Of a DNA stretch of 43,616 bases, positions 25,151-39,284 are shown piece by piece; positions within the stretch are counted from its first letter, which is position 1, and each line of letters starts with the position of its first letter. Origin of the DNA: Stenomitos rutilans HA7619-LM2 (GTDB lineage Bacteria > Cyanobacteriota > Cyanobacteriia > Leptolyngbyales > Leptolyngbyaceae); contig JAHHIE010000056.1 of the NCBI GenBank assembly GCA_019358945.1, forward strand, positions 1 through 43,616. The letters run 5' to 3'. The notes beneath the pieces are model-generated. The model was not told where the DNA came from. It saw nothing but the letters and a program-made list of their open reading frames with translations, and did no database searches. A program made the position numbers and the translations under genes.

Positions 25151-26276
25151 AGTTAAGACTTAAAATTCCTGAACTGGCTAGCTAAAAGCTCCAAGCTGAT
25201 GGTCAGACTACAACTTCAGATGAATGGTACTGACTTAACGATCTGAACCGACCCTAGCCCCAATTCATAGCCCTTTGGGAAGCAAGCTACAAGAAAAGGA
25301 GAACCGAACCATAAAGTTCTTCAGAACTTGGGACTTAAAGCCCTAAAGCCTTTCAGGTATACAAGAAAGGGTATACAAGAAAAGGTGGCTGGTTTTTGTT
25401 TATTTCAGTGCCGTTTGACTCCAGATGTCTCTTGTTTGTGCTGGCAACTGAATCCTGTATAGAGAAACAAATTGCAGCTAGAATAAATGTTAGAAAAAAT
25501 GTCTCTTTTTTAAGACCTTAAGGTGCTTATAGCGTATTGAAGTTTTTCTATAAAGAAGTGATTTTGAACAATACGCCGTTTCCATTTCGTTGTACAAAGT
25601 TTCTTCAAACGATCAGGAAAATCACTAGAGCAATTTGGTGACTTGCTCAAATTGTGCTGTCTAGCTACAACGTTGTAGTTTTTTATCGAGGCAAGTGGGG
25701 CAGTGGGTTTGTCGATGGGCCGCTGGTTGGTAAGTAATACCAGTTTTGAGTTTTGAGTAGCGCTGTGCGCCGACAAGCTAGAGAGTTTTGAGTGACCAAA
25801 CCTGCGTAGCATCGCTGGTTGGAGTACATCATCTGTAGTTCACTTAAAGGGAAATGGTCTAACTGAGCGTAATAAAACTGGGCGTGCTAGATAGGCTGAA
25901 AGCTAACCGCTAACGCTCTAGCTTGGTAAGTTTTTGATTTTTTGTCCGGATTTAGTTGAACAGCGTTGAAACGTGAATGGATGAGAACATGGCTGAGCTT
26001 GCGATCGCTAAGCTAGCCAACAAATGGGCCGAAATACCTGCTGCTGCTGTGATGATTTACTGAGATGGAACCATGAGTCTTATGTAAAACAAGTGCATGT
26101 TTCCGGTTGTAAAGCGTTTTGTGAGTAGATCGTTTTACGGGGCTACAAACGTTAGCCAAGCTGCTAGAAAAGACTTGATTTTGTTGAAACATCTCAATCA
26201 TTCGCCCGTCAAGTTGAATGCCGCCCCAACTGGTTTACTACTTTCTGGCTGTTCTACATTTCTGGGAGTGTACGAC
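25151..26276. other. Long non-coding region between the divergent arms of the polysaccharide locus
   Basis: I see no gene in this 1.1-kb stretch. It contains a palindrome AAGTTCT-TC-AGAACTT (25314-25329), a 14-bp tandem repeat starting GGTATACAAGAAA (25356-25369 and 25370-25383), and GTTTTGA heptamers at 25744-25758 and near 25786. The 100-residue minus frame at 25510-25812 is composed partly of repeat sequence and is not credible. Promoters for both arms should be here. Confidence 0.6.
25314..25383. promoter_or_regulatory. Palindrome and 14-bp tandem repeat upstream of the flippase operon
   Basis: A dyad with 7-bp perfect arms around TC (25314-25329) is followed after 26 bp by two adjacent copies of a 14-bp unit that differ only in the last base. 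They lie 164-233 bp upstream of the flippase start. A regulatory role is inferred from position and symmetry only. Confidence 0.35.
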
Positions 26277-27767
26277 GTGATTTCGACCCACATTCGCTTA
26301 ACGCCGTTGACCACTCGGTTTGCGCTGCTGGCATGCGTGCTTGCTGCGAGTCCGGCTTATAGCGCGACGCAAGGGTTGCCTGTCCAGTCGCCGTCTCAGG
26401 GAGGAGTCCCCAATTTCACTAGCCCGGCTCCGTTTGAAGAAAGTTCTTACACCCTGGGTGCGGGCGATCGCATCCAAATCGATATCTTTGATGTACCCGA
26501 ATATAGCGGTGAGAATGGCAAACGGCAAGTGCTGGTCGATGGCACGATCAACCTACCCCTTTTAGGAACTGTCTCAGTGCGGGGGATGAGCATCAAGCAA
26601 ACTGAAACCGAGCTTTCCAAGCGGTATGCCCGATTTTTCAAGCGGCCTTTTGTCACGGTTAGTTTGCTCGCTCCCCGTCCGCTCACCATTGGTGTGTTAG
26701 GCGAAGTCAGCCGTCCCGGTACGTATACCCTACCGCTAGCGAGTCAAGATGGTGGCACTCAGTTTCCTACATTGACCAAAGCGCTGCAAACAGCGGGTGG
26801 CATTACCCAGGCAGCGGATGTGCGTCAGGTGCAAATTCGCCGTCCGCAGCGGATCGGGTCGCCGCAAATCATTACCGTTGACCTGTGGAGCTATGTACAA
26901 AATGGCAGCTTGCAACAGGATGTGACGCTGCGAGATGGAGACTCCATTGCGGTTGTCGCTGCTGCTACCCCCAATCCAGCCGAGTCGTTGCAGTTGGCGG
27001 ATACCACCTTTGCGGGTGAAAAAGGCAGACCTGTGAATGTGGCGATCGTCGGTGAGGTGTTTCGTCCGGGTTCTTACCAGGTGACGGGCACCAACCCGCG
27101 TACTGGAGCGGCTGGGGCACCAGGCTCTACACCCAATACTACGAATACCGTTGATAAGCCACCTACCATTACGCAGGCGATTCAGATTGCTGGCGGCATC
27201 AAGCCCTTAGCCGATATTCGACGGATTCAAATTCGTCGCCCTACGCGATCGGGAGCCGAACAAACGATCGACATCAATCTGTTGCAGCTTGTTCAAACAG
27301 GCGATCTAAAACAGGACATAATCTTGCAATCTGGTGACACGATTACCATTCCAACGGCCACCAACCTTACGCCAGCAGAAGCCGCTCAGATTGCCAGCGC
27401 CAGTTTTTCACCCGATACGATTCGCGTCAATGTGGTAGGTGAAGTGCGTCAACCCGGTGTGGTGCAGGTACCGCCCAACACCCCTATGAACCAGGCATTG
27501 CTAGCAGCCGGAGGGTTTGATAATCGACGAGCACGCAAGAGCAGGGTGGAACTCATTCGTTTGAATCCTGATGGGACTGTGGTGCGACGCGATATTGCAG
27601 TTGATTTTGCACAAGGCATTAATGATCAAACCAACCCCGCGATGCGCAACAACGACATCATCGTGGTAAACCGATCGGGCTTAACCAGCGTCACCGACAC
27701 ACTCGGCACTATCCTCAGCCCCCTATTTTCAGTCTCCAGTTTCTTGAGGATTTTTGGTGTGCCTTAG
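26277..27767 (+). CDS. Wza-like polysaccharide export protein with SLBB domains
   Basis: The start is taken at GTG 26277, eight bases after a GGGAG ribosome site, giving 496 residues. A signal peptide follows (VISTHIRLTPLTTRFALLAC, cleavage near PAYSA). The frame stays open upstream to ATG 26097, but that stretch is not signal-like. The Poly_export domain (YTLGAGDRIQIDIFDVPEYS, GTINLPLLGTVSVRGMS) precedes three SLBB repeats marked by IGVLGEVSRPGTY, VAIVGEVFRPGSY and VNVVGEVRQPGVV. It forms the outer-membrane/periplasmic conduit for extracellular or capsular polysaccharide. The lipobox cysteine of E. coli Wza is not seen at this start. The next gene is its partner kinase, 111 bp downstream. 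Confidence 0.9.
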   Translation: MISTHIRLTPLTTRFALLACVLAASPAYSATQGLPVQSPSQGGVPNFTSPAPFEESSYTLGAGDRIQIDIFDVPEYSGENGKRQVLVDGTINLPLLGTVSVRGMSIKQTETELSKRYARFFKRPFVTVSLLAPRPLTIGVLGEVSRPGTYTLPLASQDGGTQFPTLTKALQTAGGITQAADVRQVQIRRPQRIGSPQIITVDLWSYVQNGSLQQDVTLRDGDSIAVVAAATPNPAESLQLADTTFAGEKGRPVNVAIVGEVFRPGSYQVTGTNPRTGAAGAPGSTPNTTNTVDKPPTITQAIQIAGGIKPLADIRRIQIRRPTRSGAEQTIDINLLQLVQTGDLKQDIILQSGDTITIPTATNLTPAEAAQIASASFSPDTIRVNVVGEVRQPGVVQVPPNTPMNQALLAAGGFDNRRARKSRVELIRLNPDGTVVRRDIAVDFAQGINDQTNPAMRNNDIIVVNRSGLTSVTDTLGTILSPLFSVSSFLRIFGVP

Positions 27768-27878
27768 TGTCATTCGCTGCCGCACCGCTAGCGCCCTGTT
27801 GATCTACGTGAACGCTGGCAGTTTCATCCACCGTCGATCGCTGCCCATGACGTAACGCAAGAATGCATACCGTGCCCT

Positions 27879-30215
27879 ATGACACCTAACCCCTTTCACC
27901 CGTCTGCCCTCTCTACCAATGGTTCACTGAAGCCGTCTGCTGCCTTTGCGCCCCAAAGCTTAGAGACTGATGAAGCCACCTTTGACCTCAACCAACCGTT
28001 GAGTATTGTGCGTCGTCGGCTGGGGGTTGTGTTGGGAGTGGCGATCGCGATCGCGACTATCTCCATTCCACTTTCCATCTGGGCTGCCAACCGAAAGCCG
28101 CCTCAGTATGCCGGGTCGTTTCAGCTTTTGGTCGAACCTGTCACCGCTGAAGAACAATTTAAGCGTCTGTTGCTCAACTCAGAGCAAAGTCCGGGCGAAT
28201 CGCTGCAAACGGCTCCAACGGCGCTCGATTACCCCACGCAGATTCAGGTGCTGCAAAGCTCTAAGCTGCTGGAGCCGATTGTCAAAGAGGCGCAAACTAA
28301 ATTTCCAGACATGACCTATGGTCGCGTGTCAAATAGCTTGACGATTGTTCGCGTACTGCCCAAAAATGCCAAAAAAGGGGATGAAGGCACCAAAATTCTG
28401 CAAATCACCTATCAAGATCCCGACCCAGCCGTCGCTGAGTACATGCTGAAGCTACTTTCGACGGGCTATTTGAACTACAGCCGTGACCAGCGGCAGACCA
28501 ATATTGGGCAGGGCGTGAAATTTATCAACGAACAGTTGCCCAAACTACGGCAGCGGGTGAATACCCTGCAACAGCAGTTGCAAGATTTTCGACAACGGTA
28601 TGTGATTGTCAACCCCGATACGCAAGGTCAACAGGCCGTCGGGCAATCGGGTAATCTAGAGCAGCAGCAGATGGATACAGCGGCGAAGCTGGCAGAAAGC
28701 CGCTCTAGATTAAGTTCACTGTCACGCAATGTCAATAATGCCGATGTAGCCTCAGCGCTGGCCGAAGCGCCTCAATATCAAGCGCTCTTGGGTAAATATC
28801 AAGAAGTGACGAGCCAAATTGCGTTGGAAACGGCTCGATCGCGCGAAACCAATCCCACCCTCCAGGCACTGCGCGATCGCCAGCAAAACCTGAAGCGCCT
28901 GCTCGAACAAGAATCTCAACGGGTGCTGGGTAAAGTGAATGATGAACTGGCCCTTCTGCAAGCACGCAATCAGGCGATCAGCCGCTCTAAGAACGAAGTG
29001 GATGCCCGCATTCGTCAATACCCGGCACTGGCCCGTCAATTTACCGACATTGAACGCGAACTGACCGTTGCCACGAATAGCTTAAATGAATTTCTGGCAA
29101 AACAAGAAGCTCTACAAATTGATGCGGCGCAAAAAGACGTGCCCTGGGAACTGCTATCTCCTCCGGCACTAGATAGAGACGAAACAGGTGAACCGCTCAA
29201 CGTGGCTTCCAGTGCACTGTTGAACTACATCGGTCTATCCATCTTTTTGAGTCTGGCCCTGGGGATCATCGCTGGCTTCCTGGCCGATACCAGCAGCAAT
29301 GCCTATCACACTGCTAAAGACATTCGGCAGGCAACCAGATTGCCTATTCTGGGGGTTATTCCCCTAGACCCCGATCGCTCCACGCCTCAGCCAGCCTGGT
29401 ACACAAAACTACCCTTACTGAAACGCAAACACCGTCATCCAACCCGCGAAGTAACACCCGTGATTGCCGATCCATCCACGCTAGACTTGCCAGAAATTCG
29501 AGCGATGTTTAGCGCTGATAGGCAACCTGCATCCAGCCTTGCCGCCTCACCGTTTGTAGAAGCGTTTCGATCGCTCTACAAAAACATCTGCTTGCAGCGT
29601 CCCGATGCCTCGGTGCGATCACTCACCATCAGTTCGCCCGAACCTGGCGATGGCAAAACGACGATCGCGGTCAACCTGGCACTGGCTGCTGCCGCAATGG
29701 GTCAACGAGTGCTTCTAGTCGATGCCGATTTGCGCCACCCTCAAGTGCATCACCAAATGGACTTGCCCAATCATTTGGGGCTGAGTGAAATTATGACCAC
29801 CAACACCAATGTGAGGGCGGCGCTCCAGCAATCCCCTCTGCGTGACAACCTGATGGTACTGACAGCAGGGCAAACGGTGGTTGACCCAACAGAGACGCTC
29901 ACATCGGGCAAAATGCGTCTGTTAATGGAGCGCTTTCGGATGGTGTTTGACCTGGTGATTTATGACACGCCCCCGCTGGTTGGGCTAGCCGATAGCAGCC
30001 TGATTGCCTCTCAAACCGATGGCTTAACGCTCGTCGTGCGGCTGGGCAAAACCAAGCGCCCCACCCTAAATCAGGCTCTAGAAGAATTGAAAATTTCTTC
30101 AACAGTGGTCTTGGGCATGGTGGCAAATGGCGGTAAAGAGGCGCTGGTTCCCTATGCTTATCACTATCAGGCCAAGGAAGCCTCGCAGAATGGTGCTGCC
30201 CCGGTTGAAGTGTAA
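27879..30215 (+). CDS. Wzc-like polysaccharide co-polymerase and tyrosine autokinase
   Basis: The 778-residue protein has two membrane helices (about residues 50-70 and 446-470) flanking a long periplasmic coiled-coil region. The GNVR-type end reads ALARQFTDIERELTVATNSL. The cytoplasmic bacterial tyrosine-kinase domain has Walker A SPEPGDGKTTIAVN (about 587-600), Walker A' RVLLVDADLRHP and Walker B LVIYDTPPLVGLADS. The C-terminal tail holds three tyrosines (VPYAYHYQAK), fewer than in E. coli Wzc. It controls polymer chain length and export together with the Wza-like protein. All nucleotide-site residues are present, so it should be active. No cognate low-molecular-weight phosphatase gene is in the window. 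Confidence 0.92.
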   Translation: MTPNPFHPSALSTNGSLKPSAAFAPQSLETDEATFDLNQPLSIVRRRLGVVLGVAIAIATISIPLSIWAANRKPPQYAGSFQLLVEPVTAEEQFKRLLLNSEQSPGESLQTAPTALDYPTQIQVLQSSKLLEPIVKEAQTKFPDMTYGRVSNSLTIVRVLPKNAKKGDEGTKILQITYQDPDPAVAEYMLKLLSTGYLNYSRDQRQTNIGQGVKFINEQLPKLRQRVNTLQQQLQDFRQRYVIVNPDTQGQQAVGQSGNLEQQQMDTAAKLAESRSRLSSLSRNVNNADVASALAEAPQYQALLGKYQEVTSQIALETARSRETNPTLQALRDRQQNLKRLLEQESQRVLGKVNDELALLQARNQAISRSKNEVDARIRQYPALARQFTDIERELTVATNSLNEFLAKQEALQIDAAQKDVPWELLSPPALDRDETGEPLNVASSALLNYIGLSIFLSLALGIIAGFLADTSSNAYHTAKDIRQATRLPILGVIPLDPDRSTPQPAWYTKLPLLKRKHRHPTREVTPVIADPSTLDLPEIRAMFSADRQPASSLAASPFVEAFRSLYKNICLQRPDASVRSLTISSPEPGDGKTTIAVNLALAAAAMGQRVLLVDADLRHPQVHHQMDLPNHLGLSEIMTTNTNVRAALQQSPLRDNLMVLTAGQTVVDPTETLTSGKMRLLMERFRMVFDLVIYDTPPLVGLADSSLIASQTDGLTLVVRLGKTKRPTLNQALEELKISSTVVLGMVANGGKEALVPYAYHYQAKEASQNGAAPVEV

Positions 30216-30297
30216 CCTCGGCTTAAGTTGCTCCTGTTGGAATGCCCCTTGGGTTGAAAGACCCCTTTAGTTAAAACGCCCTTTGGTAGAAATAACA

Positions 30298-32034
30298 ATG
30301 TCGGCCTCCCAAGCTATATCGGCTCCAACCACCGCTGATCTGTTTGCACTGTCTTTACTGGATCTGCCTTTACGGGATCTACAAGACAGGTTGCCTCAAC
30401 CCTCGCAGAAAGCCGTCTCGTTGGATTGGGGCGATGCGACCATTGCTCCCCCGATCGCTCCCCCTAAACTGCCCAGCTTTCTCAACCGCCGGACAGGCGC
30501 ATTAGCTGGAGCCGCGATCGCGACGGTTGCTGGTACCAGCCTGATTCACCTGGCTGACCAACCCAACACCTACGAAGGAAAATTTCAGCTACGGGTTGAA
30601 CCGACTGGTAACCCAACCGCATCTGCGGCTCCAACGGCTGCTAATCAGGCAGCACTAGCGTCACCCAGCCTTGATTACGCCAGCCAGGTACAGGTGCTAT
30701 GGAGTCCCAAGCTGCTTTCGCCCGTCGTGCAGCAACTCCAGACCCGGTACGCCGACCTGACCTACGAAACCCTCTCGCAGAAGTTAGAGATTGCGCACCG
30801 TGATGGCGAACCGACGCTAGAGATTACCTATCAGGATGCAGACCCTCAAAAAGTGCAGGCAGTGCTGCAAAAGGTATCGCACGCCTATCTGCAATACAGC
30901 CAGGAATGCCGCACCAGTCTCTGCCGTGAACTTACCTTTGTGGAGCGACGGTTGCCCCATCTGCAAGAGCAGGTGACGATCGCCCAACAAACGCTGCACC
31001 AGTTTCAACAGCAACACGACCTCACAGAACCCGCCGTACTGGGGCAGCAGTTAGCGCAACGCAGTGATGTGATCACCCAACAGCGGCACGATCTCCAAAG
31101 GCGTTTGACAGAAGCACGCACGCAGCTTGCCATTTTAGAAAAGCGGGCTGCCGAATACGTTGGTCAGCCGCAAACGGGCGTGATGGAGCAGGCGCTACAG
31201 CAGAACGATCGCTATCAGACGTTGTTGGCTCAATTTCGGACGATCGCAAACCAGATTACGGTTGAATTGGCCCGTCCGCAGCCCAACGCCATGCCGCTAC
31301 AAAGTCTGAAGCAGCGTTATCAGCAGGTAGCAGGGCAGATGACCGAAGCGGTACAGCAACCTATCATCGCCCGTCGCACGCAGGCGATCGCCGACTTCCA
31401 GGCTAACAAGACAACCGACTACACACAGGTCACGCAGCAGCAAACGCTTTTAGAATGGGCAACGGCTGCCAACCAGGTACAGATGTTGGAGGTGAGTCAG
31501 CAGGCGATCGAACAAACGGAGGCGCAAATCACCCAGCAGATCAAGCAGTGGGCGGCACTGTCACGACAATATGACGCACTTAATCTGGAGTTAAGGTTTG
31601 CCACAGATAATCTAAACCTGTACGTCGCCAAACGGGCCGAACTTCGACAAGTTGTGCCGCCAAAAACGGATTGGCAATTTGCCGAAGCTCCAGCCATTGA
31701 ACAGATTTCGCGCGGATTCTCGCTGTCCGATCCAGAGCACCGCCTGAGTTTGGGGCTGCTCCTATCATTCCTGCTGGTAGTATTCGTTATGTCCATCGCG
31801 GAACAGACTAAACCAAGGCAACGGCTTCGACGACAGCCCGCCATTCAGCCAGAATCCTGGCATCTGCACCCCTGGCAACCACCCCATGCCCCTACAAAGA
31901 TGGCGATCGTGTCAACCTTAACCCCTTCTGCGATCGCCCTGCCGCTCCAGTATCAGCAGACAACGCTGTTTCTGCTAACCGCCGTCTCCCGCCTTGAAGC
32001 CAGGGAACGAGTTGCCATGGTTAAGTCTCGGTAA
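30298..32034 (+). CDS. Wzz/Wzc-type chain-length protein lacking the kinase domain
   Basis: From ATG 30298 the protein is 578 residues. It follows the plan of the preceding kinase up to the second membrane helix: a helix at about 66-84, a long coiled-coil periplasmic region with LTFVERRLPHLQEQVTIAQQ, a GNVR-like ALSRQYDALNLELRFATDNL, and a second helix (LSLGLLLSFLLVVFVMSIAE) near residue 482. The two proteins also share F-Q-L-x-V-E-P and L-D-Y-x-(S/T)-Q-(I/V)-Q-V-L. After the second helix only about 75 residues remain, with no Walker motifs. It is therefore a paralogue that lost, or never had, the kinase. It lies 82 bp after the kinase gene and is probably co-transcribed. Confidence 0.85.
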   Translation: MSASQAISAPTTADLFALSLLDLPLRDLQDRLPQPSQKAVSLDWGDATIAPPIAPPKLPSFLNRRTGALAGAAIATVAGTSLIHLADQPNTYEGKFQLRVEPTGNPTASAAPTAANQAALASPSLDYASQVQVLWSPKLLSPVVQQLQTRYADLTYETLSQKLEIAHRDGEPTLEITYQDADPQKVQAVLQKVSHAYLQYSQECRTSLCRELTFVERRLPHLQEQVTIAQQTLHQFQQQHDLTEPAVLGQQLAQRSDVITQQRHDLQRRLTEARTQLAILEKRAAEYVGQPQTGVMEQALQQNDRYQTLLAQFRTIANQITVELARPQPNAMPLQSLKQRYQQVAGQMTEAVQQPIIARRTQAIADFQANKTTDYTQVTQQQTLLEWATAANQVQMLEVSQQAIEQTEAQITQQIKQWAALSRQYDALNLELRFATDNLNLYVAKRAELRQVVPPKTDWQFAEAPAIEQISRGFSLSDPEHRLSLGLLLSFLLVVFVMSIAEQTKPRQRLRRQPAIQPESWHLHPWQPPHAPTKMAIVSTLTPSAIALPLQYQQTTLFLLTAVSRLEARERVAMVKSR

Positions 32035-32107: not shown

Positions 32108-32932
32108 ATGCACAAACTGTTGACAGGCTCTCTGACGGTAGAACGACTGCGGCTAGCGATCGCCGATCTACCGCCAACCCTTCAGGGCGTGACACTGACC
32201 CAGTTTTCCGATTTTCACTTTGATGGCATTCGGCTTTCAGAGCGTATGCTGGCAGAGGCGATCGAGTCGAGCAATGCCCTGGAACCTGATTTAGTCGTGC
32301 TTACAGGTGATTTCGTCACGACCGATCCTGCCGCGATTCATCATTTAGTGCCCTGGCTGAAGGGATTGCAAAGTCGATCGGGCATTTACGCGGTGTTGGG
32401 CAACCACGATATTTGCTACCGACGATCGCGCCCCGAAGTCACCAAAGCCCTTACCAGCATCGGCATTCAGGTGTTGTGGAACGAGGTCGTGTATCCCTTT
32501 GGTGATGGACTGGCACTCGTTGGGCTAGCGGATTTCTGGTCAGCCTCGTTTAATCCCCTGCCCGTGATGGGCGCGATCGATCCCAATGTTCCTCGTATTG
32601 TCCTGGCCCATAATCCTGATACGGCAACTCGATTGCAAAACTGGCGGGTCGATTTGCAACTTTCTGGGCACACGCACGGCGGTCAGGTGGTCTTTCCAGG
32701 TGTGGGGAATGCTTCACAGCTTCTTTCTAAAACCTACCGGAAGCTGCCAAGACGTACCAGACGGTTCGTGCCCTGGATGAAAGAGTGCGATCGCGTCTCG
32801 AAACACTGGGAATGGGCACAGGGCTTACATACTGTTGGCAATAATCGCCTTTATGTCAACCGAGGCTTGGGCACATACCTCCCTGGTCGCTTGTTCTGCC
32901 CTCCCGAAGTAACTGTTATCACGCTTGTTTAG
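32108..32932 (+). CDS. Calcineurin-like metallophosphoesterase (YkuE/YaeI type)
   Basis: The 274-residue protein carries all metal-binding blocks of the family: D35 and H37 in SDFHFDG, D68 in TGDFVT, N99-H100-D101 in GNHD, H168 in LAHNPD, and H188/H190 in SGHTHGGQ. YkuE/YaeI-like enzymes hydrolyse phosphoesters, some of them lipid-linked; the substrate here is unknown. There is no N-terminal membrane anchor. It follows the polysaccharide genes by 73 bp on the same strand, so it may be part of that transcript, but a role in polysaccharide synthesis is speculation. The C-terminal VNRGLGTYLPGRLFCPPEV is typical of the subgroup. Confidence 0.9.
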   Translation: MHKLLTGSLTVERLRLAIADLPPTLQGVTLTQFSDFHFDGIRLSERMLAEAIESSNALEPDLVVLTGDFVTTDPAAIHHLVPWLKGLQSRSGIYAVLGNHDICYRRSRPEVTKALTSIGIQVLWNEVVYPFGDGLALVGLADFWSASFNPLPVMGAIDPNVPRIVLAHNPDTATRLQNWRVDLQLSGHTHGGQVVFPGVGNASQLLSKTYRKLPRRTRRFVPWMKECDRVSKHWEWAQGLHTVGNNRLYVNRGLGTYLPGRLFCPPEVTVITLV

Positions 32933-33091
32933 GAGCTATTAACGTTATTTAGCGGCGTGAAGACGTATCGAAAACAGGGTGCGTCTGCTACTTGCGCGTT
33001 TTATATTTCTCAGAGTAATTTAATGATACGCCGAGGTTCGCGTCGCGTCGCGATCGCTTGGTTGAAGGCGTGCGATTTACTCAGGGTCATC

Positions 33092-33955
33092 ATGTGTCAG
33101 CCGATACGACTTAGTTTCTTGCTGCTGTTTCTAGCATGGGCAGTTAGCCCTGCGATCGCAACGGCGCAACGTCTGCCTGTAGCAGCAACATCAACACCAC
33201 AATCCACGCCTCCCCGTTACAAAACAACCTGTTTTATCACCCGCTCTATAGATGTCTACCAAACGCCCAGTAAGGTATCGGCGCGCATCGGTACGGTGCA
33301 GAATCTTGGCGGGTTTACTCAACTCACCCTTGCAGAAGACAGTAGCGGCAGCAATCAATGGTTACATGTGGTCGAAGGAGATGTGCAGGGCAAGCGTCAG
33401 TCGCTCTCAGGTTACGTGTTGAACGATCGGGTCGCAACCCCAGCGAGTACCTCCAACGCTGTTCATGGCTGCATTGTTGAGCCAAGCTTTAAATCTCCCA
33501 CCGACACTGCTGGTAAGGGTTCAGACAACCCAAGTAATGCTCAGAGCCGTCAGCCTTTGACACGACCAAAGCCACCCCAGGTTACCTCGTCACCTTCAGA
33601 CGAGACAGAAGATTCATCAGTTTCATTTACCTGTTGGCTTAATCGCTCAGTCAACGTCTACAAACAGCCAAAATTGGCTGCCGAACGTATCGCTAAGATT
33701 GAAGTAGGAGAAAAAGAAGTAGACGTGAGCATAGCGGGTGCCATCGTAGAGGCGGCCTTTGGAGATCCAGGCTGGTTGCATGTTTATACGGTGAACAGAT
33801 CCGTCAACGGAAAAGACCAGGTTCAACGGCTGTCAGGGTATGTGTTTGATGACCAGCAGGCGGTTCCCAAGAATCAACCCAACGCGATCAAAAGATGTGA
33901 GGTGGTATCTCCTTTTTCTGCAGGTGGCAGTCCTCAACGCAGGCGACGGCACTAG
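33092..33955 (+). CDS. Exported protein with two cysteine-bracketed SH3-like domains
   Basis: From ATG 33092, with AGGG about 6 bp upstream, the protein is 287 residues with a signal peptide (MCQPIRLSFLLLFLAWAVSP, cleavage near ATA). The open frame extends to a GTG at 32957 but the signal fits the later start. Two copies of an 80-95-residue domain follow: TTCFITRSIDVYQTPS ... WLHVVEG ... LSGYVLND ... HGC, and FTCWLNRSVNVYKQPK ... WLHVYTV ... LSGYVFDD ... KRC. Each copy starts and ends with a cysteine, which suggests a disulphide. The V-Y-x-x-P ... W-L-H-V ... G-Y pattern resembles bacterial SH3 domains. A Thr/Ser/Pro-rich linker joins them. The C-terminus SAGGSPQRRRRH is shared with the next two genes. 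Confidence 0.8.
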   Translation: MCQPIRLSFLLLFLAWAVSPAIATAQRLPVAATSTPQSTPPRYKTTCFITRSIDVYQTPSKVSARIGTVQNLGGFTQLTLAEDSSGSNQWLHVVEGDVQGKRQSLSGYVLNDRVATPASTSNAVHGCIVEPSFKSPTDTAGKGSDNPSNAQSRQPLTRPKPPQVTSSPSDETEDSSVSFTCWLNRSVNVYKQPKLAAERIAKIEVGEKEVDVSIAGAIVEAAFGDPGWLHVYTVNRSVNGKDQVQRLSGYVFDDQQAVPKNQPNAIKRCEVVSPFSAGGSPQRRRRH

Positions 33956-34232
33956 CTTTCTAAACTGTCTGTTAAGCGACTGTGCAATCAGCCATAGCTG
34001 TCGCTTTGCTATGAGTAAATACGCACCTACGATCGCTGCCAATCAATTAGCATCCCAATGATTCAGAAACTTCATTCGCAAGCAGCCAAGAGGTCACTCA
34101 GCTAAATTATTACGATATAGATTGGTTATTCCTCCATCAATAACTTTGCCGTATGCTGAGACTGGCGTGTAAGCCAATTGCGTGAACACCCGATCGCCTT
34201 CACAACGTCAAGTGCTCTACCCCAGTCAAACG

Positions 34233-34784
34233 ATGCGTTACCTGATACAAAGCAGATTCTTACGGCTATTGTTCACAGGCATCTTGCTATTGCTTGTCAG
34301 TGGGTTCAACAGCCCGATCGCCTTTGCCGAAAATCTTCTGGTTGCCACTAATACAACGCCGCAACCGACTCTGCAAACCTTGCTGCCGACGGCAGAGCGC
34401 CCCCAAGGGGGTGTAGTAACCTGTGCGATCGCCCGCTCCATCATCCTCTACGAGCAGCCCAGTGAGACCGCCAAGCAGACGGCTACGGTGTTTACACAGG
34501 GTAAACAAACACAGCTTGTTCTTGCAGAGGGCGATGGCAATGAGACATGGCTGCATGTGGCGCAGGTCAATTACGCTTCTGGAGTGTCTCAACCGCTTTC
34601 AGGCTATGCTTTCAATGACCTAAAGGCAACTCCACAGCAGTCATCAAGTGCGATCGTCGCCTGTGCTGCATCTAAACCAGTTCCTTTGTCTATTCCAGCT
34701 TCCCAACCGTCTACTGAAGCCTGGACAACGACGATTAAAAGTTATAGTAGCTCCGGTGCTCCACAAAGACGTTACCAGCGATAG
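34233..34784 (+). CDS. Exported protein with one cysteine-bracketed SH3-like domain
   Basis: From ATG 34233 the protein is 183 residues. A GTG at 34182 would add 17 residues before the signal peptide. The signal is MRYLIQSRFLRLLFTGILLL with cleavage near IAFA. One copy of the domain follows: VTCAIARSIILYEQPS, WLHVAQVNYASG, PLSGYAFNDL and AIVACAA, again bracketed by two cysteines. The C-terminus SSSGAPQRRYQR matches that of the upstream gene. It is plainly a paralogue of the second half of that gene. It lies 277 bp after it, and the intervening DNA has no gene. Function is unknown; bacterial SH3-like domains often bind peptidoglycan or other surface polymers. Confidence 0.78.
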   Translation: MRYLIQSRFLRLLFTGILLLLVSGFNSPIAFAENLLVATNTTPQPTLQTLLPTAERPQGGVVTCAIARSIILYEQPSETAKQTATVFTQGKQTQLVLAEGDGNETWLHVAQVNYASGVSQPLSGYAFNDLKATPQQSSSAIVACAASKPVPLSIPASQPSTEAWTTTIKSYSSSGAPQRRYQR

Positions 34785-35113
34785 GCAGCGCTTAAGTTCG
34801 TTTTTCCCAGTTAGAGCGGCATCTTCTCAACTTGAATTATGGACTCTAAAGCTTCGATCGCCGCTACTCTTTCGATCTTTCTGGTTCAGAGTTCTCTAGC
34901 TGCCAGTCCTTTAATTCTGTGCAACACTGAATGGTCCGGAAGTTTGGATACTAGGCTTGGAGGATAACTGACACGGCTAGAGCATAGATTGCGAGAGAGT
35001 ATGGACTGCGTTGCCTATCGTTTGTGAAAAAAGCATAAGGCAGGAGAAAGCATAGCTATACCTTGGTTAAGGTACAATCTCGTCACTAGTTAAAAACAGG
35101 TGTTTTACTTAAG
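34785..35113. other. Intergenic region carrying a relic of a downstream gene start
   Basis: These 329 bp contain a short open frame at 34839-34967 whose first 27 bases match the start of the TIR-WD40 gene (35769) at 23 positions. The DNA upstream of both ATGs also shares TTAAG and an AGCxGCATC block at matching spacing. Otherwise no feature is seen. Confidence 0.55.
34839..34967 (+). pseudogene. Short open frame, probable remnant of a TIR-WD40-type gene start
   Basis: The 42-codon frame begins MDSKASIAATLSIFLVQSS, compared with MDSNASIAVDQSLTTSELQ for the TIR-WD40 protein. Nucleotide identity is 23 of 27 from the ATG and then vanishes. It lies 55 bp after the second exported paralogue, as the TIR gene lies 80 bp after the third. 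It may instead encode a small exported peptide, since LSIFLVQSSLAAS is signal-like; the relic explanation is preferred. Confidence 0.4.
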
Positions 35114-35689
35114 GTGAAACGATGTGTAATGCAGCACGACTTATTCTTGCCGATGTTGCTAGCTGTGGCATTTAGTATTTTGAGCGGTTGTGGTAGGGTC
35201 TCAAAGCCTGCTACTAAACTTTCTCCTAGCCCTATCTCATCTACTCCTGTAGCACCAATGGGATATCCAGGCTGGTACTGTGATCTGAATGGCACCGCCA
35301 AAGTATATAAAGAACCTAGTAATCGTTCTCAGCTACTTGCTGAAGTTGGCAAACCTGGTGAACCGTCTGTCATAAAACTTGCAGACGACGATCAAGCACC
35401 AAGAAGCACTGAGGGGTTGTGGTTTTACATTGTAAGTGTAGGCAACCGTTCTGACGCTTTTGCCAGAAGCCAGGGTTTGCCCTTAGGTTATTATTGGGAG
35501 TTCCACGAGACGGTTGCGATTCAGGGCTATCTCTTCAATGACATTGACACAAACGCTGCTAGCACGAACCCATCCAGAGTGGTTACAGAGTGTACACCAC
35601 CGCCACAGTGGCGGCGACCTTCCGTTGGTGCCCCTAAAAATTCGGGCAACCCACAAAAGCGATCGCCCTCAGCTAAAAACGCAAAGTAA
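35114..35689 (+). CDS. Lipoprotein with one cysteine-bracketed SH3-like domain
   Basis: The 191-residue protein has a lipoprotein signal (MKRCVMQHDLFLPMLLAVAF, lipobox LSGC). The GTG start at 35114 supplies the basic n-region; the ATG at 35129 is the alternative. The single domain is a longer variant of that in the two upstream genes: WYCDLNGTAKVYKEPSNRSQ, WFYIVSVGNR, IQGYLFNDID and VVTECTPPP, with both bracketing cysteines kept. The C-terminus ends with NSGNPQKRSP, matching the S-x-G-x-P-Q-(R/K)-R motif of its paralogues. A membrane-anchored form beside two soluble exported forms suggests different sites of action in the envelope. It lies 80 bp upstream of the TIR-WD40 gene. Confidence 0.78.
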   Translation: MKRCVMQHDLFLPMLLAVAFSILSGCGRVSKPATKLSPSPISSTPVAPMGYPGWYCDLNGTAKVYKEPSNRSQLLAEVGKPGEPSVIKLADDDQAPRSTEGLWFYIVSVGNRSDAFARSQGLPLGYYWEFHETVAIQGYLFNDIDTNAASTNPSRVVTECTPPPQWRRPSVGAPKNSGNPQKRSPSAKNAK

Positions 35690-35768
35690 TGTTCATGAAG
35701 CACTGTAGAAAACAGCGGCTGATTTAAGAATCCTTCTTTGTCCTAGCAGCATCGCCCCCAAACAACTC

Positions 35769-38585
35769 ATGGATTCTAATGCTTCGATCGCGGTTGATCA
35801 ATCCTTGACGACCTCTGAGCTTCAGCAGGGGCGGCGTAACATTTTTATTTCGTATTCTCGACGTGACAAGTTCTTTGTGCGGAAGCTGTACGATGCGTTT
35901 GTCGCCAGCAATCGTAGCGTCTGGGTTGATTGGGAAGACATTCCACCCTATGCCCACTGGCGCGAAGAAATTCGTACAGGCATTTTGTCAGCCGATGCAT
36001 TTTTGTTTGTGATCAGCCCTGATTCCATTGATTCGCTGGAATGCAATAAAGAACTAGAGTGCGCGATCGCCCAAAATAAGCGACTGCTGCCAATTGTTCA
36101 CCGTGATGTTGATAAAGCCGCACACACGACTATCAAATTAGAGCTTGGTGAGATTAACTGGTTTCCCTTTCGTGAAACGGATGATTTTGATCAGGCGTTT
36201 CAGGGCTTGTTAAAGGCGATCGACACCGATCTCAAGCATGTGCAACTGCATACACGGGTGGCGATACGAGCGGATGAGTGGCTACAACATCACCAGGAGC
36301 AGAGCTTTCTCTTGCGCGGCAGTTTTTTAGAAACCGTTGAACAATGGCTAGCGGAAGCAACGGAAAAGCAGCCGCTACCCACCGATCTCCAGCGGCAATA
36401 CATTAGCCTCAGTCGTTTAATGGAAACGGCACGGCAAAAGGTGCAGGCACGCCGACGAACCGCGATGTTTGCGATCGGCTTGCTTGCTCTCGTGTTGACC
36501 AGCGTTTCTGCGGTCATTGCCGAGTATCGTCGTCAGCAAGCGCTACGGGGCGAAATTGCAGCACTGGCCTCGTCATCAGATGCCCGCTTTGTCTCCGATC
36601 GCAAGTTTGAAGCACTCTTGCAAGGGCTACGTGCTGGCATAGCGCTGCAACAAGCAAGGTTTGCCAGGGGCGATCGCGCCCTCACAGATAACGTTACGCC
36701 CGTCCTGACGCAAGCTGTTTTCTGGGTGCAAGAGCAAAATCGCTTACAGGGACATATCGGTTGGGTGGGTGGGGTTAGCTTTAGCCCCGATGGACAAACC
36801 ATTGCGACTGCCAGCGGCGATCGCACCATCAAACTCTGGCAGCGTGACGGTAGGTTGATTAAAACGCTGAAAGACCATACCGATGCGGTCTCCAGTGTCG
36901 TCTTTAGCCCCGATGGTCAGTGGCTCGTCTCAGGCGGGTTGGATAAGACCGTGCGGCTGTGGCGATCGGACGGCACCTTAGTGAAAACACTACAGGTTCC
37001 AGCCGGAATTCGCACCGTTCGCTTTAGCCCGGATGGACAAGTGTTTGCCGCAGGTGGAGACGATAACATGAGCAGACTGTGGCGCACGGATGGCACCCTG
37101 GTTGCGACCTTAAAGGGGCATGGTCAGCGGGTGAACTGCGTGCGCTTTAGCCCCGATGGACAAACCATTGCCACTGCCAGCGATGACAACACCATCAAAC
37201 TCTGGCAGCGCGATGGCAAACTCATCAAAACCTTAAAAGGGCATCAGGCACAGGTCATTGCTCTGAGCTTTAGCCCCGATGGACAAGTGTTTGCGTCGGG
37301 TGCCTTAGATAAAACGATCAGGTTGTGGCGACGGGATGGCACGCTGATCAGAATCATCACCCAATTAAGCGATGGAGTCAGAGCGCTGAGCTATAGCCCC
37401 GATGGCAAACTGCTGGTTTCCGGGGGTGAAGATTACGCAGTCAAGCTGTGGCAACCCGATGGCACGCTGCTGACGACGCAGACCGGGCATCGGAATGCGA
37501 TCGCAGATCTCAGCTTTAGTCCCGATGGGGCAGTGGTTGCCTCTGCCAGCCACGACAGCACCATTAAGCTCTGGCGCACCAAGAATTCTCATATCACGGT
37601 GCTGCATAACCCCGTCACTAAAGACTCGAATGACTTCGATCGCATCCCCAACACTGCTCACTTTAGCCCCGACGGTCAGCGCATCATCGTTGCGAATACA
37701 GATGGGACGGTAAAACTGTGGCAGCGCGACGGGACGCTCATCAACACGGTTGCCCACCATGACGATCGCGCCAATACTGCGATCTTTAGCCCCGACGGTC
37801 AAATGCTTGCCTCAGCCAGCAACGACAATACGGTCAAGCTCTGGAAGCCGGACGGTAAACGCATCGCTACCCTGAAGGGAAAGAATTTTCAAGATGTTGC
37901 CTTTAGTCCCGACGGACAGACGATCGCCACTGCCGATGCCGTTGGCAAAGTGCAGTTCTGGCGGCAAGATGGCAGCTTAGTGCGATCAATCAAAGGACAC
38001 ACGGGCTATATCTACAGCGTTAGTTTTAGCCCCGATGGTCAACAGCTTGCGTCGGTTGGAGAAGACGGCACCATGCGCCTATGGAAACTGGATGGTAGCC
38101 CGATCATGACGCTCAAAGAGACGAGTGATAAAACCTCTGTCCTGTATAGGGTGAGTTTTAGCCCGGACGGTCAATACCTGGTAGCCGCAAGTGCCGATGG
38201 TACTGTCAAGCTCTGGAGACGGGATGGCACGCTGGTGACAACGCTGGGCGATCGCACCGCTCAAATGGGCGCTGTCACTTTTCACCCCCATGAACCTCTA
38301 CTGGCAGCAGCGGATGATAAAGGCACGATTTTTCTCTGGCGGCTGGACGGCACTCTGATGACCACCCTAATGGGGCATCAAAAAGGAGTATGGAGCCTAA
38401 GTTTTAGCCCCGATGGTAAAACGCTTGCCTCAGCCAGTGATGATACCCGTGTGATTGTGTGGAATCTGGATGACCTGAGCCTCGATCGTTTGATAAACCT
38501 TGGCTGTAGCTGGATGCAAGGATATCTACAGACCAACCCAATGGTTGCCGATCGCGATCGTCATTTGTGCGACAGATATCAGTGA
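35769..38585 (+). CDS. TIR domain - transmembrane - WD40 protein (14 repeats)
   Basis: The 938-residue protein has an N-terminal TIR domain (about 21-155): RNIFISYSRRDKFFVRKLYD, VWVDWEDIPP, and LECNKELECAIAQNKRLLPI, where E95 matches the catalytic glutamate of NAD-cleaving TIR domains. A helical linker (about 160-228) precedes one membrane helix (231-250, TAMFAIGLLALVLTSVSAVI). Fourteen WD40 repeats follow from about residue 325 to 905, most with FSPDG and (K/R)LW, enough for two seven-bladed propellers. The tail LGCSWMQGYLQTNP ... DRHLCD is common in cyanobacterial WD40 proteins. The TIR should face the cytoplasm; whether the propellers are periplasmic depends on topology. It may be a signalling or defence receptor. 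Repeat 13 (FHPHEP) is the most diverged. Confidence 0.92.
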   Translation: MDSNASIAVDQSLTTSELQQGRRNIFISYSRRDKFFVRKLYDAFVASNRSVWVDWEDIPPYAHWREEIRTGILSADAFLFVISPDSIDSLECNKELECAIAQNKRLLPIVHRDVDKAAHTTIKLELGEINWFPFRETDDFDQAFQGLLKAIDTDLKHVQLHTRVAIRADEWLQHHQEQSFLLRGSFLETVEQWLAEATEKQPLPTDLQRQYISLSRLMETARQKVQARRRTAMFAIGLLALVLTSVSAVIAEYRRQQALRGEIAALASSSDARFVSDRKFEALLQGLRAGIALQQARFARGDRALTDNVTPVLTQAVFWVQEQNRLQGHIGWVGGVSFSPDGQTIATASGDRTIKLWQRDGRLIKTLKDHTDAVSSVVFSPDGQWLVSGGLDKTVRLWRSDGTLVKTLQVPAGIRTVRFSPDGQVFAAGGDDNMSRLWRTDGTLVATLKGHGQRVNCVRFSPDGQTIATASDDNTIKLWQRDGKLIKTLKGHQAQVIALSFSPDGQVFASGALDKTIRLWRRDGTLIRIITQLSDGVRALSYSPDGKLLVSGGEDYAVKLWQPDGTLLTTQTGHRNAIADLSFSPDGAVVASASHDSTIKLWRTKNSHITVLHNPVTKDSNDFDRIPNTAHFSPDGQRIIVANTDGTVKLWQRDGTLINTVAHHDDRANTAIFSPDGQMLASASNDNTVKLWKPDGKRIATLKGKNFQDVAFSPDGQTIATADAVGKVQFWRQDGSLVRSIKGHTGYIYSVSFSPDGQQLASVGEDGTMRLWKLDGSPIMTLKETSDKTSVLYRVSFSPDGQYLVAASADGTVKLWRRDGTLVTTLGDRTAQMGAVTFHPHEPLLAAADDKGTIFLWRLDGTLMTTLMGHQKGVWSLSFSPDGKTLASASDDTRVIVWNLDDLSLDRLINLGCSWMQGYLQTNPMVADRDRHLCDRYQ

Positions 38586-38810
38586 CCTCTAGAGGCTGTC
38601 ATCAGTTATCAAGACATATGATTGGCAGCATCTCGCCCCCTGCTCCCGCTATCCCACGCGCTACAACGACCGCCCATAGCTTAAGAGAAACGGAAGAAGT
38701 TGAATGCAGATGTTGAAATACTTCTTTGGCTAGACCTCACTTCCAGGCTGTCAAGGTTAGATATTAAGCAGTTGAGTAAAAATTCTTTAAGCTTTAAGGC
38801 TCTTGCCACC

Positions 38811-39284
38811 ATGTTTACAAATAAGCCGACTCAAGCGTATCGGTTGCTTGCGGTTGATGATATCCCAGACAATTTGTTTCTATTGCAAACAATCTTAGAA
38901 GCTGAAGGGTTTGCTGTGGATGTCGCAACCAGCGGGAGCATTGCTCTCAATAAAGTCAAAGCTTCACCTCCCGATTTAATCTTGCTGGATGTCATGATGC
39001 CCGATATGACTGGCTACGAAGTGACGCAGCGCATCCGGCAGGATGAGAGTTTACCTGCCATGCCGATCTTGCTCATTACAGCTCACGATAAAGCAAGCGC
39101 TTTACAAGGGCTTGAGTTAGGGGCAAACGATTTCATTAGCAAGCCGATCGACCTTAATGAACTGCTCTCGCGCATTCGAGCCTATTTGCAGTTAGAGCAT
39201 ACTGTTGACGTAGAGCTTGGTGGCAAAACAGGGAACACCGTGAAAGCCACCAAGCACACTTGGCGAGCAACACAGAATCGATAA
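38811..39284 (+). CDS. CheY-like single-domain response regulator
   Basis: From ATG 38811 the protein is 157 residues. The open frame before it (from TTG 38700) is not receiver-like. The receiver domain is complete: LLAVDDIPDN with D16 and D17, phospho-acceptor D60 in LILLDVMMPDMTG, T90 in ILLITAHD, and K111 in FISKPID. A basic tail of about 28 residues follows without an output domain, so it must act by protein contact. No histidine kinase is in the window, so its input is unknown. It follows the TIR-WD40 gene by 225 bp and converges with the ABC transporter gene. Confidence 0.9.
   Translation: MFTNKPTQAYRLLAVDDIPDNLFLLQTILEAEGFAVDVATSGSIALNKVKASPPDLILLDVMMPDMTGYEVTQRIRQDESLPAMPILLITAHDKASALQGLELGANDFISKPIDLNELLSRIRAYLQLEHTVDVELGGKTGNTVKATKHTWRATQNR

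Follow-up and report, generated by a model that had tools for sequence, protein, structure and literature searches.

We examined a 43,616-nucleotide stretch of DNA from the cyanobacterium Stenomitos rutilans HA7619-LM2 (contig JAHHIE010000056.1; the whole stretch is called the window, and positions without a locus label refer to it). Within it lie three adjacent genes, here named A, B and C, that carry copies of one cysteine-bracketed domain, followed by a gene for a protein joining a TIR domain, a transmembrane (TM) segment and WD40 repeats; all four genes are on one strand (Table 1). A, B and C are a real, unnamed, strain-specific set of exported proteins resembling bacterial SH3 (SH3b) domains. 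Export of A and B is predicted from signal-peptide-like leaders and the lipoprotein nature of C from a lipobox-like ILSGC at its N-terminus, both recognised by eye without a signal-peptide program. This prediction supports the two soluble exported proteins and one lipoprotein described in an earlier annotation made from the letters alone (the sequence-only reading). For gene B an alternative start, GTG at 34182, is possible.

Table 1. Features of the locus; positions are those of the window.
Feature	Position	Strand	Description
Gene A	33092-33955	+	Predicted exported protein, two domain copies; start ATG 33092
Copy A1	33221-33481	+	Gene A; Cys-to-Cys 81 residues
Copy A2	33620-33907	+	Gene A; Cys-to-Cys 89 residues
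Gene B	34233-34784	+	Predicted exported protein, one domain copy; start ATG 34233
Copy B1	34413-34673	+	Gene B; Cys-to-Cys 81 residues
Gene C	35114-35689	+	Lipoprotein-like; one longer, more divergent domain copy
Copy C1	35270-35602	+	Gene C; Cys-to-Cys 105 residues
TIR-TM-WD40 gene	35769-38585	+	938 aa, 14 WD40 stretches
Near copy of TIR gene start	34839-34861	+	21/23 nt identical to the first 23 nt of the gene
Block without counterpart in comparable congeners	32934-38677		Between metallophosphoesterase and response regulator; about 5.7 kb
Left flank	32108-32932	+	Calcineurin-like metallophosphoesterase; present in 5/6 congeners
Right flank	38700-39284	+	Response regulator

That one domain occurs four times in these genes, distributed two, one and one, had been proposed by the sequence-only reading and was confirmed by shuffle tests and alignment. 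The score of each of the six copy pairs was reached by none of 1000 shuffles; A1, A2 and B1 are close to each other (pairwise z = 22-29) and C1 is distant (z = 6-7 against the others; 26% identity between B1 and C1). Both cysteines and the Y, P, W and GY are among the twelve columns of the four-copy alignment that do not vary. The proposed coordinates and most of the proposed motifs held, with some corrections: the opening motif reads C-x7-(V/L)Y-x2-P in all four copies rather than having five or six residues after the cysteine, a domain size of 80-95 residues fits A1, A2 and B1 and not C1, and the tail common to the three proteins is G-x-P-Q-(R/K)-R, without the leading S-x. Gene C does adjoin the TIR gene, across a spacer of 79 nt (35690-35768) instead of 80. 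A scan of 32800-38800 returned neither promoters nor terminators on the + strand, and is thus uninformative on co-transcription.

In a Pfam search, protein A matched PF08239 (SH3_3) with 19.2 bits (E 0.0014) against a curated cut-off of 27 bits; neither B nor C gave an SH3 match at E ≤ 1, and B matched no Pfam family at all. At curated thresholds, the family had thus rightly been left without a name. An AlphaFold model of A1, built from the four-row alignment, is all-beta (pLDDT 82, pTM 0.70), and its best structural match is the SH3b domain of the phage phiSM101 endolysin (4krt; Z 8.2, rmsd 1.8, 64 aligned). Further SH3b matches were 9ovi (Z 7.5), LytB (Z 7.3) and the cyanobacterial SH3b-NlpC/P60 enzymes 2evr and 2hbw (Z 7.0), values to be read with the caution that a Z under 8 may reflect a common arrangement only; eukaryotic signalling SH3 domains ranked lower, at Z 4.9 and below. 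The lysostaphin SH3b domain was also among the first twelve rows of this structural alignment list, and the leading Foldseek rows, all with E above 0.001, were mostly SH3-like domains of cell-wall enzymes. Sequence searches of solved structures reached at best E 0.5 with protein A and 0.29 with the four-copy profile. The fold prediction that the sequence-only reading had called for therefore matches A1 to the SH3b domains of cell-wall enzymes. With these domains, in NlpC/P60 enzymes and endolysins, and with PF08239 the copies share the all-beta fold predicted for A1 and a similar order of core motifs (VY..P, TV..G, W-L-H-V, GY). They differ in scoring under the curated cut-off and in carrying extra residues ahead of the GY strand, most of all in C1; Pfam found no hydrolase domain in any of the three proteins. 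According to PMC2954226, NlpC/P60 enzymes from cyanobacteria and related ones have SH3b domains that are themselves highly divergent.

Other SH3 proteins of the same genome offer a closer comparison. SH3_3 gave 16 matches at E ≤ 1 in the whole genome, 9 of them above the cut-off. The exported SH3 proteins L075, L077 and L084 carry the same cysteine bracket, and A, B and C belong by their leaders (judged by eye) and their cysteines at both domain ends to this class of the genome. Compared with the four copies, the domains of L075, L077 and L084/L105 are shorter, with LNVR or VYKQ cores. L084 has two domain copies, as gene A does, but no TIR gene adjoins it within the 12 kb viewed. In L084/L105 the first domain (C..VSVYKQ..TL..VTLAD..SGYL..C) resembles the domain studied here in a shortened version, and its tandem neighbour is a clear SH3_3 match. 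B1 aligned with this first domain at z 7.6 and with L077 at z 8.9, scores reached by 0/1000 shuffles each. Two four-row profiles, one of the four copies and one of own-genome SH3 domains, were matched by hhalign with a probability of 91, and the latter profile detected A1 (E 1.9e-6), B1 (1.8e-5) and A2 (5.9e-4) in a test of 4 sequences only.

Several observations, besides the caution on Z values, weigh against this assignment. No copy attains the PF08239 cut-off, the whole-genome SH3_3 scan had no match at the locus at E ≤ 1, and Foldseek returned no PDB match to the A1 model at E ≤ 0.001. The L084 domain that forms the bridge is itself a weak SH3_3 match (L087, E 0.55), and when 4119 background frames were included the own-genome SH3 profile scored A at E 0.0015 and B at 0.12. 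C1 is the least secure: the same profile gave it E 0.2, none of its alignments with the four SH3 domains of the own genome stood out from shuffles, and its poor model (pLDDT 63) found structural neighbours similar to those of A1, with Z at most 7.0, the best being 4krt. Because the background-tested link is weaker and C1 is unlinked alone, we term the family SH3b-like and not a member of PF08239. The predicted fold of A1, the weak SH3_3 match and the own-genome SH3 proteins together support the original description as SH3-like and point to a divergent relative of bacterial SH3 domains.

The search of cyanobacterial genomes proposed in the sequence-only reading was run with a profile of the four copies, and no convincing relative was found. 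In the own genome the profile recovered only its own four copies at E ≤ 10. Elsewhere, one weak match appeared among 386 genomes of the phylum, one among 388 genomes of the class (the two samples overlap) and two among 42 genomes of the order at E ≤ 0.1, all judged spurious; among the matches listed, no more than 13 candidates from any one genome were scored. The individual candidates were rejected on inspection. The G089 match (E 0.008) has three stops within the stretch, the frame in G015 (E 0.010) looks by eye like an unrelated protein of 145 aa and that in G421 (E 0.044) like a TetR-type regulator, and in G469 (E 7.1e-4) the segment DLSGYVLDD lies inside a 1961-aa frame of what appears by eye to be an unrelated large protein. 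Protein A alone matched one of 39 genomes, the source genome itself. Scans of genome contigs by short peptide patterns, which may omit the source genome and can miss distant relatives, gave no relative. By tblastn, protein A had no match in plasmids or phages, B had none in plasmids, and C found in plasmids only one stretch of 37.5% identity (E 0.4); no match came from viral scans run with protein C or with A1 and B1 aligned.

Comparison of the genomic setting was limited to three of six congeners, as the flanks were not found together in G001 and G004 and G005 gave no metallophosphoesterase at E ≤ 1e-20. The aligned metallophosphoesterase and response-regulator stretches lie about 0.5 kb apart in G006, where no long reading frame intervenes, about 0.19 kb apart in G003, and 1.6 kb apart in G002, with other genes between them; the profile detected no SH3 copy in any of the three, and the gap holds no TIR-sized reading frame. 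Homology resumes to the right of the block at 38681 against G006 and at 38678 against G002. Since it is absent between the same flanks in all three comparable congeners, the segment 32934-38677 is private to this genome with respect to them. Directly past the TIR gene, at 38594-38608, stands GGCTGTCATCAGTTA, perhaps the end of a small mobile element; in G006, at the site that lacks the block, the core of this motif is present twice in inverted orientation (L066 6848 and 6951). Such a match is present in 14 of 100 shuffles, so we do not press the mobile-element reading.

Upstream of the block, at 26097-32034, lie polysaccharide export genes (Poly_export/SLBB, Wzc-like and a third that is similar by eye, with no Pfam match), and this cluster ends 73 nt before the metallophosphoesterase. 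Such proximity might suggest that the SH3b proteins serve the export cluster, for example by binding capsule. We regard this as very improbable: G006, G002, G001 and G003 carry the same export genes in the same order and none has the SH3 genes, so that the tie is not conserved.

The gene that follows C encodes a TIR-TM-WD40 protein, which the sequence-only reading had described as a membrane-anchored TIR protein with two WD40 propellers. Its N-terminal TIR domain is matched within residues 9-125 by models of PADLOC and, below their cut-off, of NCBIfam, a single hydrophobic stretch lies near residue 233, and the WD40 stretches recognised by Pfam are compatible with two propellers; E95 is, by motif, presumably the catalytic glutamate. 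The score for a Thoeris ThsB-type protein stayed under its cut-off (ThcB4, 34.9 versus 220 bits) and the PADLOC ThsB matches were weak, ThsA not having been searched for. The TIR-TM part has 9 matches in its own genome and matches in 30 of 58 genomes, the source included. Of the eight other own copies, six (L090-L095) carry WD40 repeats as the window protein does, one carries TPR repeats, and one (L097 1336-4593) combines a CHASE2 sensor domain with three TIR stretches. Large genes that begin with a TIR domain were also seen in runs, three of them in G006 (L101 8306-18962) and two in G001 (L100 3-4505).

In a tree, the window TIR groups on a long branch, with support 98/92, with L011 (G001), L090 (own genome), L012 (G427) and L023 (G009), to which its TIR-TM part is 49-54% identical. 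Where the window TIR gene is preceded by an SH3 gene, three of these four relatives have a papain-like C1 protease directly upstream, and the fourth, in G009, has neither. Two of the three proteases contain three PG_binding_1 stretches each, and G419, outside the nearest group, also has a papain-like protease upstream. In all, the protease stands directly upstream on the same strand in four genomes (L090 1243-7428, L098 1238-7376, L099 5796-10200 and L103 5836-10311). No protease remnant was detected at E ≤ 1e-4 in window frames of at least 40 codons. One might read this as modular wall surveillance, in which TIR-WD40 proteins of this clade take exchangeable envelope-binding partners encoded directly upstream, a protease (in some with peptidoglycan-binding repeats) or, here, a multiplying SH3b set, and so swap the probe; we hold this generalisation to be unlikely.

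The sequence-only reading had gone further and proposed a TIR-linked envelope-sensing module, naming a conserved neighbourhood with TIR-WD40 genes as its own test. The domain profile was run on 46 loci and the window: the 30 best TIR loci (including that of the window), 15 longer stretches and the L084 locus. The 29 loci of 29 other genomes cover about 1.5 kb on each side, some ended by contig ends; among the longer TIR stretches, 8 are from the own genome (6.4-8.1 kb upstream) and 7 from other genomes. Within this set, beyond which many further TIR matches lie, significant matches occurred only in the window's own genes, the next being L084 at E 0.1; the G009 TIR locus reached at best E 0.18. 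G009 does have an SH3 protein (L108 3112-3690), located 6.6 kb upstream of its TIR gene; the two were not counted as a pair because opposite-strand genes intervene and the SH3 protein resembles L084. The proposed module thus fails its test, with no gene of the family beside the TIR loci examined (29 elsewhere, 8 own). Conservation does not support a coupling of SH3 and TIR genes, which is possible within this one genome.

A local cassette of this kind would have the SH3b proteins bind or watch an envelope polymer, or phage damage to that polymer, and pass a signal through the membrane to the TIR-TM-WD40 protein, whose TIR domain would act on NAD. The shared strand and the short spacer after gene C fit such a cassette, as does the presence of both gene types in one block absent from three congeners. 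Two of the TIR relatives (L090, L098) follow a papain-like protease with peptidoglycan-binding repeats, and PMC7159879 describes GTPases of conflict systems whose bacterial SH3 domains lie on the far side of a membrane segment. Nevertheless, we judge the cassette doubtful, as no other TIR locus examined has a gene of this SH3 family and three of the four nearest TIR relatives are paired with another gene.

A possible further sign of a link between the two gene types lies 54 nt past the stop of gene B, where the first 23 nt of the TIR gene recur with 21 identities. The score of this match was reached in 1/2000 and 0/500 dinucleotide shuffles in two comparisons, and when the 7.28-Mb genome was searched for the 23-mer pattern, allowing 3 mismatches at most, a single additional place turned up, with 3. 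Within the 23 nt, the seven-nucleotide CGATCGC is presumably part of a palindrome common in cyanobacteria. The near copy also opens a short frame of about 42 codons that is signal-peptide-like by eye. The match, which is not a genome-wide repeat, modestly favours a single past copying of an SH3-TIR junction at the locus and, with it, a cassette. The leader upstream of the 23-mer is, however, not significantly alike (score reached in 523/5000 shuffles), and the low identity of B1 and C1 ill fits a duplication that kept 21 of 23 nt; since B and C diverged far more than these nucleotides, a simple old duplication is a poor fit.

The same near copy and the short spacing between C and the TIR gene speak against the view that a strain-specific envelope or matrix SH3b set and an independently moving TIR-WD40 paralogue merely became neighbours by chance at one variable site. 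Against these stand the variability of the site among G006, G003 and G002, the abundance of TIR-TM homologues, and an SH3 family confined to this genome in the samples searched. Third-position G+C is lower in A (0.48), B (0.51) and C (0.42) than in the TIR gene (0.57), which weakly suggests that their histories differ. Chance neighbourhood is a serious contender, somewhat short of an even chance.

On balance, we think it probable that A, B and C are strain-specific exported SH3b-type proteins that bind an envelope ligand, while the TIR gene belongs to a separate multi-copy family with which a partnership is possible. They would be proteins with disulfide-stapled SH3b domains, two soluble and one lipoprotein, that arose through local duplication and divergence in a 5.7-kb block that this genome either acquired or alone retained. 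Their location would most likely be the periplasm or the outer envelope, where the cysteine pair would tie the first and last strands of each domain. An envelope-binding role is inferred from fold and export: the SH3b surface would bind its ligand, for instance a stem peptide of peptidoglycan or a surface polysaccharide, and the proteins may be local partners of the TIR protein.

TIR and WD40 domains occur in bacterial conflict or regulatory systems, as parts of PMC10907252 and PMC7517822 report. Among the listed titles and abstract starts on cyanobacterial TIR-WD40 proteins, bacterial SH3 domains in cyanobacteria and SH3 with TIR, none names the pairing and none addresses what bacterial TIR-WD40 membrane proteins sense. 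We know of no signal established for these proteins. Should the SH3b proteins do no more than decorate the envelope, they represent a common kind of lineage-specific expansion of a fold already known; should they instead feed into the TIR protein, they would give direct access to the question of what such membrane proteins respond to.

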